64,000 bases of DNA from Micromonospora sp. M71_S20 (lineage in GTDB: Bacteria; Actinomycetota; Actinomycetes; Mycobacteriales; Micromonosporaceae). Under the pieces are notes generated by a model. That model was not told the origin of the DNA, made no database searches, and saw only the letters and a list, made by a program, of their open reading frames with translations. This document shows positions 2 through 5,198 of this stretch, piece after piece. A program made the position numbers and the translations under genes. The stretch covers positions 1,302,001-1,366,000 of the forward strand of contig NZ_RCCV01000001.1 in assembly GCF_003664255.1 (NCBI RefSeq), read 5' to 3'. The first letter of the stretch is position 1; each line of letters opens with the position of its first letter.

Positions 2-1138
2 CCAAAGGCCGGCTCGGCCTACACCTACGGGTACGCGGTGCTCGGCGAGGCGGTGGGCTGGTTCATCGGCTGGGACCTGCTGCTGGAGTACACCGCGATC
101 GTGGCCGTGGTGGCGATCGGCATCTCCGGCTACTTCTCGTTCCTGGTGGGCGAGCTGGGGGTGGACCTGCCGGCCTGGATGCTCGGCGCCCCGGGCACCG
201 GCGAGGGACGGGTGGTCGACCTGTTCGCGGTGGTTCTCTGCCTGTTCATCGCGTTCCTGCTGAACCTCGGGATCAAGTCCGCCGCCCGCTTCGAGACGAT
301 CGTCGTCGGGTTGAAGATCGCCGTGGTGCTGCTGGTCGTCGTGGTCGGCTTCTTCCACATCCGCACCGAGAACTACTCGCCGTTCTTCCCCTTCGGGCTG
401 GGCGGGGCGTTCACCGGCGCGGCCACGGTCTTCTTCGCCGTGTTCGGCTACGACGCGATGAGCACGGCCGCCGAGGAGTCGAAGGACGCCCGCCGGCACA
501 TGCCCAAGGCGATCATCTACTCGCTGGCGATCTCGATGGTCCTCTACGTGCTGGCCACCCTGGTGCTGACCGGTATGCAGAACTACCGGGACATCGACCC
601 GGAGAGCGGCTTCTCCTCCGCGTTCGCCTCCGTGGGGCTCTCCGGCCTGGCCAGCGTGATCGCGGTCGGCGCGATCATCGGCATCCTGACCGTGATGTTC
701 ACCTTCATGCTCGGCGTCACGCGGGTGTGGTTCTCGATGAGCCGGGACGGGCTGCTGCCGGGATGGTTCGCCAAGCTGCACCCGGTCCGCCGGGTGCCGA
801 GCCGGGTCACCTGGATCGTCGGCGTGGGCTCGGCCCTGATCGCCGGCTTCCTGCCGATCCGGGAGGCGGCCGAGCTGACCAACATCGGCATCCTGCTGGC
901 CTTCGTGGTGGTCTGCGTCGCGGTGATCGTGCTGCGCTACCGCCGCCCCGACGCGCCGCGCACCTTCCGGCTGCCGGGCATGCCCGTGGTGCCGGCGCTG
1001 GGCGCGGCCTTCTCCCTCTGGCTGATCACCTACCTGGCCCCGGAGACGTGGCTGCGCTTCGCCGTCTGGTTCCTGATCGGCGCGGTCATCTACGCCCTCT
1101 ACGGCTACCGGCGCTCGGCGCTGGCCCGCCGGGACTGA
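2..1138 (+). CDS. APC-family amino acid permease, 5'-truncated by window edge
   Basis: This is the C-terminal part of an integral membrane amino acid/polyamine transporter of the APC superfamily, closest in pattern to the cationic amino acid transporter (CAT/SLC7-like) group. The reading frame is open from base 2, and the first codons read PKAGSAYTYGY, the conserved glycine/tyrosine-rich loop of this family, so the true start lies upstream of the window. About ten hydrophobic helices follow. The segment DAMSTAAEESKDARRHMP is the typical cytoplasmic loop after the central helices. The protein ends with a short basic tail (RRSALARRD). Its 3' end overlaps the 3' end of the convergent radical-SAM gene by 34 bases. 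Substrate specificity cannot be read from the sequence; basic amino acid uptake or exchange is a family-based inference. Confidence 0.9.
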   Translation, partial: PKAGSAYTYGYAVLGEAVGWFIGWDLLLEYTAIVAVVAIGISGYFSFLVGELGVDLPAWMLGAPGTGEGRVVDLFAVVLCLFIAFLLNLGIKSAARFETIVVGLKIAVVLLVVVVGFFHIRTENYSPFFPFGLGGAFTGAATVFFAVFGYDAMSTAAEESKDARRHMPKAIIYSLAISMVLYVLATLVLTGMQNYRDIDPESGFSSAFASVGLSGLASVIAVGAIIGILTVMFTFMLGVTRVWFSMSRDGLLPGWFAKLHPVRRVPSRVTWIVGVGSALIAGFLPIREAAELTNIGILLAFVVVCVAVIVLRYRRPDAPRTFRLPGMPVVPALGAAFSLWLITYLAPETWLRFAVWFLIGAVIYALYGYRRSALARRD

Positions 1139-1854
1139 GGGCGGCACCCGCGCCCTCGGGACCGGGGGCGGTCACCCGCGCCCGGAGCTGCCCGCCCGCC
1201 GGGGCTGCGGCCGGTCACCGACGCCAGCAGCTCGTCGAGGGCGTCGACCTCGGCCCAGCCGTTCACCGCGATCCGGCCGGCGGCGTCGACTGTCACCTCG
1301 ACCCGGTCCGGGCTGCGCGACACCTCGTCGAGCAGGCCCGGGAAGCGGTCGCTGAGCAGCACGAACTCCTGGTTGGTGGAACCCACCCAGGGTCGCCGGG
1401 TGTCGATCCGGTCGGCCAGGAACGGCCCGGCGACGAGGAGGTCGGTCGCCGCCAGCAGCGCCGCGACGTCGTCCCGGCCGGCGTCGACCGCCCGGTGCAG
1501 CTGCGCCCCGGTGTAGCCGGTGAAGGTCATCACCGAACGCCCGGCGGCGCGTACCCCGGCGGCGACGGCGGCCAGCGGGGCGGCCTGGTCGAAGGGCTCG
1601 CCGCCCAGCAGCGTCAGCCCCTCGGTGCCGGCGTCCAGCACCCGGCGCACCAGGTCGGCGGGGGCGACACGTTCCCCGCCCCGGAAGGTCCACAGGTGCG
1701 GGTTGAAGCAGCCGGGGCAGCGGATGGCGCAGCCCTGCACCCAGACGGCCGTCCGCTCACCCGGCCCCTCCGCACGGGTGGCGGACAGGAACCGGGCCAC
1801 CGACACCGCCTCCGCCCCGACCGCAGGGCGGGGCCCGGGACCGTCGTCAGACAT
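1105..1854 (-). CDS. radical-SAM activase-like protein (NrdG/PflA-like 4Fe-4S domain)
   Basis: A 249-aa protein of the small radical-SAM activase type. Near the N terminus, residues 42-49 read CAIRCPGC, a canonical CX3CX2C motif that ligates the SAM-cleaving 4Fe-4S cluster. The SAM-binding GGEP motif follows in TLLGGEPFDQ. Length and layout match activating enzymes such as anaerobic ribonucleotide reductase activase, but no glycyl-radical enzyme is encoded nearby, so the partner is unknown. The ATG overlaps the end of the preceding HhH gene by 8 bases, making it the last gene of a five-gene operon. The C-terminal ~35 residues are Arg/Gly-rich, look poorly conserved, and overlap the neighbouring permease gene on the other strand. 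Radical chemistry is well supported; the substrate is not. Modification of an operon partner protein is inference. Confidence 0.82.
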   Translation of the reverse strand: MSDDGPGPRPAVGAEAVSVARFLSATRAEGPGERTAVWVQGCAIRCPGCFNPHLWTFRGGERVAPADLVRRVLDAGTEGLTLLGGEPFDQAAPLAAVAAGVRAAGRSVMTFTGYTGAQLHRAVDAGRDDVAALLAATDLLVAGPFLADRIDTRRPWVGSTNQEFVLLSDRFPGLLDEVSRSPDRVEVTVDAAGRIAVNGWAEVDALDELLASVTGRSPGGRAAPGAGDRPRSRGRGCRPQSRRASAERR

Positions 1855-3523: not shown

Positions 3524-3554
3524 CGGGGCCCTTCCCTCGGTGTCGACCCACAGA

Positions 3555-5198
3555 CTAGAACTCGACCGCTCGCCCGCCCTGTCCCCGTTGCTGCCCCGGA
3601 CCGCCGGGCCGGGAGCCGCTCGGGCCGGCGGGGCGACCGCCGAGGTCCCAGTCCTCGGCGGCGGTGGCGGCGACGGCGCGGGCGTCGGCCCAGGAGCGTA
3701 CGGCGTCGATGCGTTCGGCCTGGGTGACGCTGAGCGGCACCATGCTGACCAGGGCCCGGACCAGGTCGTCGCGGCGCAGCGGACGCCGTTCGGCGAAGGC
3801 GTCGAAGAGCCCGCCGACGACGGCCTGTTCGATCTCGGCCCCCGAGTAGCCCTCGCTGAGCCCGGCGAGTTCGCCGAGCAGGGCGTCGTCGAGCGTCAGG
3901 GCGCCGGCGACGGCCGGGTTGCGCAGCCGCCGGGCGAGGTGGACTCGCCAGATCGACGCCCGCTCCGCGCGGGTCGGCAGGTCGACGAAGAAGATCTCGT
4001 CGAAGCGTCCCTTGCGGAGCAGTTCCGGGGGCAGCCGCTCGAAGTCGTTGGCGGTCGCGATGACGAAGACGGGCTGGGCCTTCTCCTGCATCCAGGTCAG
4101 GAAGGAGCCGAAGACCCGGGCGGAGGTGCCGGAGTCGCCGGCCCCGCCGACGAAGCCCTTCTCGATCTCGTCGATCCACAGCACGCAGGGCGCGGTCGCC
4201 TCGGCGGTCCGGATGGCGGTGCGCATGTTCTGCTCGCTCGACCCGACGAGCCCGGCGAAGACCCGGCCGACGTCCAGCCGCAGCAGCGGCAGACCCCAGG
4301 CCGAGGCGATCGCCTTCGCGGTCAGCGACTTGCCGCAGCCGGGCACCCCGGTGATCAGGACGCCCCGGGGCGCGGGCAGCCCGTACGCCGCCGCCTCGGC
4401 CAGCCAGGAACCGTCCCGCTTGGCCAGCCACCGCTTCAGGTTCTCCAGCCCGCCGACGTCGGCGAGGTCGACCGGGGCGTCGACGAACTCCAGCAGCCCC
4501 GACTTGCGTACGGTCTGCCGCTTCTCCTCGTGCACCACGGCGAGGTCGCTGCCGTCGAGCACGCCGTCGTTGACCATGGCGCGGGCGAACGCGTTCTCCG
4601 CCTCGTGCAGGGTGAGCCCGAGGGCCGCCTTGGCGAGCCGTTCCCGGCCGAGGTCGTCCAACGCGATCCGGATCCGGCCGCCGGCGGAGTTGGCGGCGAT
4701 CATGCCGTCGAGCACCCGCCGGATCTCCGTCTCGGTGGGCAGCGGGAAGTCGACGATCGTCACGTCCTTCTCCAGCTCCACCGGGATGTGCAGCACCGGC
4801 GAGACCAGGACGAGGGTGCGCGGCACCGGGCCGGCCTTGAACGCCGCCACCACGTCCCGCAGCCGGCGGACCACGCCGGGGGTGCCCGGCCGGTCGCTGC
4901 CGCCGTGCGCAGGGTGCAGGTCCTTGAAGATCAGCACGCTGGGGTGGTCGAGGCGCAGCGCGGCGGCCAGCGCGTCGTCCGGGTCGGTGGTGCCCTTGCG
5001 GGCGACGCCGTCGGGCTGCACGAGCCCCGTCGTCAGCGACCAGGTCCACACCGCCCGGGGCGTGCGGACGAGGGTGGCGTCCTGGGCGACGGCGCAGACC
5101 TCGGCGACCACCCGCTGTTCCTCGGACGACTCGACGTAGAGGACCGGGAAGCGCGCCTTGAGCATCTGCGACAGCGCGTCACGAAACGGCACCACCAT
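3555..5198 (-). CDS. Ycf46-like AAA+ ATPase
   Basis: A 547-aa AAA+ ATPase. The N-terminal ~250 residues form a Ycf46-like domain (LKARFPVLYVESSEEQRVV, then WTWSLTTGLVQPDG). The AAA core has Walker A GVPGCGKS at residues 284-291, Walker B VLWIDEIEKGF, sensor-1 TAND and the second-region-of-homology arginines in LLRKGRFDEIFF. ATG 5198 is preferred over an in-frame ATG six codons upstream because GGGAGGGGGAGTGAGG directly precedes it. It is the first gene of the five-gene minus-strand operon ending at 1105. AAA+ proteins of this class usually act as hexameric remodelling ATPases; a remodelling role on the operon's own partners is inference. A G-rich tract and an inverted repeat lie upstream. Confidence 0.85.
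   Translation of the reverse strand: MVVPFRDALSQMLKARFPVLYVESSEEQRVVAEVCAVAQDATLVRTPRAVWTWSLTTGLVQPDGVARKGTTDPDDALAAALRLDHPSVLIFKDLHPAHGGSDRPGTPGVVRRLRDVVAAFKAGPVPRTLVLVSPVLHIPVELEKDVTIVDFPLPTETEIRRVLDGMIAANSAGGRIRIALDDLGRERLAKAALGLTLHEAENAFARAMVNDGVLDGSDLAVVHEEKRQTVRKSGLLEFVDAPVDLADVGGLENLKRWLAKRDGSWLAEAAAYGLPAPRGVLITGVPGCGKSLTAKAIASAWGLPLLRLDVGRVFAGLVGSSEQNMRTAIRTAEATAPCVLWIDEIEKGFVGGAGDSGTSARVFGSFLTWMQEKAQPVFVIATANDFERLPPELLRKGRFDEIFFVDLPTRAERASIWRVHLARRLRNPAVAGALTLDDALLGELAGLSEGYSGAEIEQAVVGGLFDAFAERRPLRRDDLVRALVSMVPLSVTQAERIDAVRSWADARAVAATAAEDWDLGGRPAGPSGSRPGGPGQQRGQGGRAVEF

Follow-up and report, generated by a model that had tools for sequence, protein, structure and literature searches.

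A conserved five-gene operon in Micromonospora joins a Ycf46-like AAA ATPase, a tail-sharing membrane protein and a radical SAM protein in a possible remodelling machine

In a stretch of 64,000 nucleotides of the Micromonospora sp. M71_S20 genome (contig NZ_RCCV01000001.1, positions 1,302,001 to 1,366,000; hereafter the window), five minus-strand genes encode a Ycf46-like AAA ATPase, a DUF1257-like protein, a DUF2997 protein, a helix-hairpin-helix (HhH) protein with hydrophobic segments, and a radical S-adenosylmethionine (SAM) protein. This operon is a real conserved unit and not a local oddity, and its AAA and HhH proteins end in the same short motif, R-x-h-[DE]-h-COOH, where h is hydrophobic. 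We give an even chance to the reading that the operon encodes a single membrane-tethered, p97-like remodelling machine with the radical SAM protein acting inside it; we infer the complex, its substrate, and its purpose. The features are as follows, with positions in the window.

3555..5198, minus strand: Ycf46-like AAA ATPase, 547 aa, with a degenerate N-terminal and a predicted active C-terminal AAA domain (Pfam, phrog_8638, alignment, model)
4326..4349, minus strand: Walker A motif GVPGCGKS of the predicted active AAA domain, residues 284-291 (sequence, alignment)
3558..3578, minus strand: GGRAVEF, the C-terminal tail of the AAA protein, within a region that the model shows as disordered (motif comparison, model)
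3071..3523, minus strand: divergent DUF1257/Ycf35-like protein, 150 aa, with an additional hydrophobic N-terminus (profile comparison via intermediates)
2859..3071, minus strand: DUF2997 protein, 70 aa (Pfam)
2985..2987, minus strand: codon of DUF2997 Cys29 (Cys in 99/99 distinct homologues)
1847..2875, minus strand: HhH protein with three predicted N-terminal hydrophobic segments, Pro-rich linkers, a helix-hairpin-helix domain, and the tail (Pfam, hydropathy)
1850..1867, minus strand: C-terminal tail GRVLDV of the HhH protein (motif comparison)
1105..1854, minus strand: NrdG/PFL-activase-like radical SAM protein, 249 aa (Pfam, motifs, PDB match)
1708..1731, minus strand: CX3CX2C [4Fe-4S] motif, Cys42/46/49 (sequence)

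The cluster of five open reading frames (ORFs) fills 1105-5198, and three of its four junctions overlap: the DUF1257-like stop and the DUF2997 start share TGATG at 3071, DUF2997 and HhH overlap by 17 bases, and HhH and radical SAM by 8; 31 bases separate the AAA gene from the DUF1257-like gene. An initial annotation, made from the letters of the window, had described five coupled minus-strand genes, and its coordinates, TGATG junction, and two overlap lengths are all exact; the motifs it named are also present, Walker A and B as GVPGCGKS and VLWIDE in the AAA protein and CX3CX2C as CAIRCPGC in the radical SAM protein. The HhH reading frame starts at an ATG, with an alternative GTG possible at 2878.

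Conservation and spread of the five genes

Conservation of gene order had been named beforehand as a test of this unit. We fetched 20 of the 32 Micromonosporaceae loci positive for the DUF1257-like protein, and all 20 carry the five genes in the window's order. We also scanned a collection of species genomes with the radical SAM protein as the seed and viral contigs with the AAA protein as the seed, keeping the best 80 loci from each; the radical SAM-seeded loci and the 20 family loci overlap by at least five. Among the radical SAM-seeded loci, 45 have a Ycf46-like AAA protein (E<1e-150) and 38 have all five components, in keeping with the earlier inclusion of the membrane HhH and radical SAM proteins as regular members. 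Carriers of the complete set belong to four bacterial phyla and include Actinomycetota, Bacillota, one Armatimonadetes bin, and Tenacibaculum. The window's order, AAA-DUF1257-DUF2997-HhH-radical SAM, is found in 21 of the 45 AAA-bearing loci and the order AAA-DUF2997-radical SAM-DUF1257-HhH in 9; the other 15 show further orders, lack a component, or meet a contig end.

Profile-free clustering of the proteins in these 45 loci recovered the HhH family in 42 (41 by profile). Two further large unlabelled clusters, from 45 and 33 loci, are antisense to core genes, judged by an example ORF, and no other widely shared gene emerged, each remaining group being present in at most 9 loci. Chance co-location of the five genes is rejected by this clustering together with the order in the family loci, the AAA tree described below, and the number of complete loci.

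In a tree of 156 AAA rows, from which 13 of the 20 family loci were omitted to thin near-copies and in which L011-L018 are genome loci, 58 rows form one branch with SH-aLRT support of 100. This branch comprises all 56 rows with radical SAM and HhH proteins plus two rows cut by a contig end (L014, L058), and the rows around it are mainly AAA proteins from viral contigs, phages, and plasmids. The form with radical SAM and HhH proteins occupies a single AAA branch and is distributed over several phyla, so a single origin followed by spread is probable; given long branches elsewhere and the midpoint root, neither the deeper order nor the direction of spread is certain.

The DUF1257-like protein is found in 32 of 200 Micromonosporaceae genomes (9 of 44 genera) and in 5 of 37 genomes of the genus, and a PF11211 (DUF2997) profile run over 396 genomes of the phylum gives three matches, two of them above the cut-off, one of which is the Micromonospora genome itself. 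On Paenarthrobacter plasmids (L020, L028) and a Rhodococcus plasmid (L027), all five genes stand in the window's order, and a Paenibacillus plasmid (L023) carries AAA-DUF1257-DUF2997-4Fe-4S. The trio of AAA, DUF1257-slot protein, and DUF2997 occurs on cyanobacterial plasmids, an IncC plasmid, a Thermovibrio plasmid, and Rhizobium phage RHph_I4; near the AAA relatives at L021, L024, L032, L033, and L034 there is no DUF1257 or DUF2997 annotation. With the AAA protein as the query, tblastn matches 87 phage records, in 31 of which coverage is 80% or more, together with 715 plasmid records at E<=1e-20, a number that may include other AAA proteins; with the DUF1257-slot protein of L009 it returns no phage record and one plasmid record. 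The best 80 AAA-seeded viral-contig loci, viewed up to 6 kb on each side and with L117 and L118 (not viral) left out, divide into 43 with the AAA protein only, 22 that add DUF1257 and DUF2997, 8 that add radical SAM too, and 7 with other combinations. To call these families best known from plastids and cyanobacteria, as the initial annotation did, understates their spread, given that the trio also turns up on plasmids, phages, and viral contigs.

Such a distribution could also be read as that of a stress or conflict system, anti-phage or anti-plasmid, in which the ring detects foreign complexes or takes them apart and the phage and plasmid versions are counter-measures. The patchy occurrence of the DUF1257-like protein and the mobile trio fit this alternative, as do a remote similarity of the AAA protein to IetA and the Synechocystis ycf46 operon, described as responding to many stresses (in the available text of PMC7496141, citing earlier work). 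The same text reports that loss of ycf46 lowers EcaB activity. However, the five genes have no further widely shared neighbor in the 45 loci, so there is no common toxin, nuclease, or protease, and four of the five proteins have no PADLOC match; we consider a conflict role unlikely.

Several loci depart from the usual layout. A 5926-base phage-like contig from a small genome of the same phylum (L018/L009) encodes an AAA protein ending in KRRIEL, a DUF1257-slot protein, DUF2997, and a SWIM zinc-finger protein, along with an ORF that resembles RadC by sequence only. On an E. coli IncC plasmid (L026), the AAA protein, a hypothetical protein in the DUF1257 slot, and DUF2997 lie in a row on a resistance-plasmid backbone. 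Micromonospora fulviviridis (L043) has a radical SAM protein and a tail-bearing HhH protein, and AAA, DUF1257, and DUF2997 were not detected in the fetched stretch.

Around the operon, the beta-lactamase-like gene is found in 19 of 61 genomes of the genus and the permease in 9 of 61, at strict cut-offs. Between the end of the former (5404) and the operon lies a GGGGTG tandem array (5335-5403, about 11.5 copies, 85% matches), which, read on the operon strand, is C-rich and lies upstream of the AAA gene. Farther away, a plus-strand ORF at 7510-8448, beginning MPVYVVSVINYKGGVGKTT, resembles a ParA-type ATPase on reading its sequence.

A C-terminal tail shared by the AAA and HhH proteins

Few other proteins end in the motif that closes both GGRAVEF and GRVLDV. 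The motif class was chosen after the first loci had been viewed and before the 80 radical SAM-seeded loci. Among 8272 ORFs it occurs 136 times, compared with 3-14 times for each of seven permuted or shifted control motifs; in the 38 five-component loci, 33 AAA proteins carry it, compared with a mean of 0.005 after shuffling of the last 30 residues. Within the Micromonospora genome, a degenerate DNA pattern for GR-x-h-[DE]-F-stop has two matches, the AAA gene and a site seven codons past an in-frame stop.

Tails guided the choice of HhH seeds, and the first HhH profile includes the tail; the search was repeated with a profile built without it, and the clustering of loci uses no tail information. 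With the tail-free profile, 57 of 58 complete HhH ORFs bear the tail, or 52 of 53 after deduplication (the counts 57/58 and 136/8272 include duplicate copies of some loci, among them the window, L001, and L008). When viral and family loci are included, 69 of 70 distinct HhH proteins have it. In the AAA protein the tail is strict in 37 of the 45 loci and shifted by two residues in two more, and the 20 Micromonosporaceae loci carry it on all 20 HhH proteins and 16 AAA proteins. Scored in the tree rows, where one trailing residue is allowed, the tail is present in just 2 of 15 AAA proteins that have a radical SAM protein and no HhH protein nearby, one of them on a truncated contig, so the tail tracks the HhH protein more than the radical SAM protein; L080, L088, and L106, for example, have the radical SAM protein, no HhH protein, and an AAA protein without the tail.

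The HhH protein scores 34.3 bits against HHH_3 in Pfam (cut-off 27) and 32.7 against T2SSK (24.2). Hydropathy places three hydrophobic segments in it, with positive charges after the first and the third. After the hairpin, a P-H segment is conserved in 17 of 21 HhH seed members; ComEA has a second hairpin at the corresponding place. The N-terminal part of these proteins varies, with hydrophobic segments or, in L067 and L070, a GYF_2 domain, and the HhH region and tail are constant, which points to a docking element. Scores against the NCBIfam comE model (24.7 bits; cut-off 152.35) and GspK (19.6 bits; cut-off 130) are low, and on the comE score, far under its cut-off, a ComEA-type role in DNA uptake is rejected. 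The initial suggestion that the complex works perhaps with DNA loses its footing here: the HhH region matches T2SSK as well as HHH_3, falls far below comE, and in 17 of 21 cases has the P-H segment.

Variants of the tail arrangement were also seen. AAA proteins at the Micromonosporaceae loci L041, L044, L052, L230, L234, L241, and L247 lack the tail and their HhH partners keep it; L089, L067, L064, and L119 each encode two HhH proteins, both with the tail. At L056, upstream of the five genes (1902-2447, plus strand), a short protein resembles the membrane part of the HhH partner, has no evident HhH region, and ends in GGRVIDL. On a Treponema plasmid (L021), next to an AAA protein with the tail GVRKLEM are a 4Fe-4S protein and a gene whose annotation reads phage baseplate assembly protein V.

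The tail might instead be what the radical SAM protein acts on. In this alternative, the enzyme recognises or modifies the C-terminal G-R-x-h-[D/E]-h of the AAA and HhH proteins and so tunes docking of the ring or its turnover. Consistent with this idea, the radical SAM protein looks orphan (see below), the tail is near-constant where radical SAM and HhH proteins coexist, and a Gly precedes the Arg in all 37 strict AAA tails, as read by eye from the listing. Yet the low count of tails without an HhH protein argues against it, 16 viral AAA proteins bear the tail with no radical SAM protein in the examined stretch, in Bacillota and Actinomycetota several HhH tails are without the Gly, and some AAA proteins beside a radical SAM protein lack the tail. 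We regard tail modification as improbable, even more so than a conflict role. The tail as a direct glycyl-radical site is rejected, since several HhH tails have no Gly.

Component proteins and a possible mechanism

Predictions from sequence and modelling make the AAA protein a Ycf46-like and p97-like tandem AAA protein with an inactive first domain. It scores 104.7 bits in Pfam (cut-off 21.2), matches phrog_8638 over residues 5-515, and is 43-45% identical from end to end to the AAA proteins of two cyanobacterial plasmids (43 and 44% when aligned with L022 and L029), the cyanobacterial comparison being with plasmid-borne proteins. The Ycf46 label given initially is supported, in the sense of Ycf46-like, by the end-to-end similarity, the phrog_8638 match, and the common tree. 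Alignments and the model indicate that the first domain has no Walker A motif and that the second has Walker A and B and an arginine-finger region. The model has a mean predicted local distance difference test score of 89.7, with residues 521-547 below 50. Its best structural matches in the PDB are to p97 along the whole protein (E 3e-24, template modelling score 0.55, root-mean-square deviation 8.3), and the best PDB sequence matches are NVL and p97; the NCBIfam CDC48 cut-off is not reached (101.9 vs 802.65 bits).

The DUF1257-like protein has no Pfam, NCBIfam, or PADLOC match, none of 27 family members reaches the PF06868 (DUF1257) gathering score, and a fold search with its model gave no PDB match at E<1e-3. 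A profile of four actinobacterial members, compared by hhalign with 11 DUF1257-slot proteins, gives a probability of 94.5% (single-comparison E 8e-8); an alignment of Micromonosporaceae members only (A1) gives 6.7%. The same four-member profile matches the Bacilli members L066 (3e-11) and L068 (2e-15), whose top Pfam match is PF06868 below its cut-off (18.3 and 18.4 vs 22.2 bits). Among other slot proteins, the archaeal one at L106 scores 76.1 bits against PF06868 and those at L112 and L080 have no match to it. Judged by these profiles, the protein is related to DUF1257 through intermediates only; the initial DUF1257 label thus fails by the Pfam threshold and holds as a statement of homology. 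Its closest named homologues are in Micromonospora. Two weak matches outside the genus (L006 and L007, E about 5e-4) look like chance, and none of the other four components lies in the examined stretches.

The DUF2997 protein reaches the Pfam gathering score (47.3 bits; cut-off 24.1), as its initial label implied. The position of Cys29 is Cys in all 99 distinct sequences; the Cys of the DUF1257-like protein is not conserved, being present in 36 of 56. A PDB search with DUF2997 gave a single match, at E 0.67.

The radical SAM protein scores 100.1 bits against Fer4_12, a 4Fe-4S single-cluster domain (cut-off 22), has CX3CX2C, GGEP, and GS-x-NQ stretches, and matches PFL-activating enzyme in the PDB; it does not reach the NrdG equivalog cut-off (82.4 vs 126.1 bits). 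In its own genome we found no NrdD (PF13597) or Gly_radical (PF01228) domain, with controls positive in 6 and 3 of 14 genomes, and because of this the protein looks orphan. Glycyl-radical activation is therefore rejected as its job in this genome, which makes the earlier term "activase" unlikely in that sense. At L084, L087, L090-L094, L097, L100, L101, L107-L109, and L111, mostly in Myxococcota and Planctomycetota, relatives of the radical SAM protein lie about 3-4.5 kb upstream of a distant other AAA protein (E about 1e-26 to 1e-37), with no DUF1257 or DUF2997; this is perhaps a second radical SAM-AAA system.

These observations can be assembled into a mechanism. The AAA protein would be the subunit of a p97/CDC48-like tandem-AAA ring, with its second domain as the ATPase motor, and the DUF1257-like and DUF2997 proteins, which recur with it as a trio, may be small adaptors or carriers of the ring. 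The HhH protein would serve as a membrane anchor with its HhH part in the cytosol. The short tail common to the AAA and HhH proteins would let both bind a single receptor in the complex, for which the DUF1257-like protein or the radical SAM protein is the likeliest candidate; cofactors are recruited to p97 through its C-terminal tail as well. The NrdG-like radical SAM protein would draw on its [4Fe-4S] cluster and SAM to modify a protein that the ring unfolds or presents. Because the search of the genome found no glycyl-radical enzyme, the probable substrate is either a component of the complex itself, for instance DUF2997, whose Cys is invariant, or a client protein. The conserved five-gene unit and the shared tail lend support to the single complex at the membrane suggested by the initial annotation; involvement of DNA is unsupported.

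In 127 red-algal plastids, ycf34, ycf35, ycf46, and pbsA track habitat with 82-88% concordance, which the authors connect with iron (available text of PMC5940233). The similar behavior of ycf35 and ycf46 counts in favor of a common machine; the iron connection lends some weight to an alternative in which the ring and adaptors insert an Fe-S or metal cofactor, or mend it, in the maturation of a metal or redox enzyme, with the radical SAM protein here, or a ferredoxin in cyanobacteria, supplying chemistry or electrons. The invariant Cys of DUF2997 and the cyanobacterial duf2997-ycf35-fed7 gene cluster (in the part seen of PMC4284462) agree with such a role. However, the five genes have no widely shared client enzyme as a neighbor, and the Cys of the DUF1257-like protein is not conserved; cofactor maturation seems to us about as doubtful as tail modification.

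Several points weigh against the membrane-tethered machine. The membrane segments are assigned by hydropathy only, and the high deviation in the p97 match means that domain placement differs. The AAA protein lacks the tail in 6 of the 45 loci, in 3 of which the HhH protein has it, and in 4 of the 20 Micromonosporaceae loci. Of the 100 AAA rows not scored with both radical SAM and HhH proteins, 21 still bear the tail, 16 of them viral and nearly all of these without a tail-bearing partner in the examined stretch, so the tail is not confined to this complex. DUF2997 keeps its Cys also where no radical SAM protein is nearby and so need not be the target of that enzyme, and 30 of the 80 radical SAM relatives have none of the other four components as scored, which indicates that this type of radical SAM protein works elsewhere too. 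Finally, the single complex is itself deduced from sequence, its physical interactions being predicted.

Relation to known systems

The portions of the literature examined assign no settled molecular function to Ycf46, Ycf35, or DUF2997, and many plastid genomes retain the first two. With its small, defined set of partners, its invariant Cys, its identified enzyme class, and a short tail open to deletion, the five-component form makes the role of Ycf46 and Ycf35 directly testable outside photosynthesis. AAA remodelling machines and the AAA, DUF1257, and DUF2997 families were already known; the form with radical SAM and HhH proteins and the shared tail appear new, and the open PMC literature, as far as its available text goes, yielded no description of the five-gene set or the tail. 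More tentatively than the single machine itself, we propose a previously undescribed device driven by ATP and radical chemistry: a p97-type ring, a membrane anchor that copies its tail, a pair of adaptors of which one carries an invariant Cys, and a radical SAM enzyme that modifies presented proteins, of single origin, present in at least four phyla, and akin to the trio of phages and plasmids.

The HhH protein resembles ComEA and GspK of the T2SS in scoring above the Pfam cut-offs for HHH_3 and T2SSK, and differs from them in falling under the comE and GspK cut-offs and in its Pro-rich linkers and shared tail. Similarly, the radical SAM protein shares with NrdG and PFL-activating enzymes its motifs, its Fer4_12 score, and its PDB match, and differs in its score below the NrdG cut-off and in having no glycyl-radical partner found in the genome. 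IetAS/SgiAT, an AAA protein plus a serine protease (SgiAT is described in PMC10954446, in the text available), also has an AAA protein of the broad SpoVK/Ycf46/Vps4 superfamily; in contrast, Pfam finds no protease domain in the five proteins of the operon, and the IteA equivalog score is 64.4 vs 510 bits. With no protease domain and no further widely shared gene in the 45 loci, and given this low score, an IetAS-type toxin-antitoxin system is rejected.

The cyanobacterial and plastid Ycf46-Ycf35-DUF2997 set, joined in cyanobacteria by Fed7 (PMC4284462), is alike in the full-length relatedness of its AAA protein, in DUF2997, in a divergent DUF1257, and in a nearby Fe-S protein. The operon's own DUF1257-like protein differs in its additional hydrophobic N-terminus and the lack of a Pfam match, and at three cyanobacterial plasmid loci (L022, L029, L030) neither a radical SAM nor an HhH protein was detected and the AAA proteins end without the motif, unlike in the operon. 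With p97/CDC48 and NVL/Rix7, the AAA protein shares two tandem AAA domains and its best structural (p97) and sequence (NVL, p97) matches; it differs in having no Walker A motif in the first domain, no p97 N-domain, other partners, and a score far below the CDC48 cut-off. If our reading is true, the operon would be unusual in pairing a p97-like motor with a radical enzyme dedicated to it.

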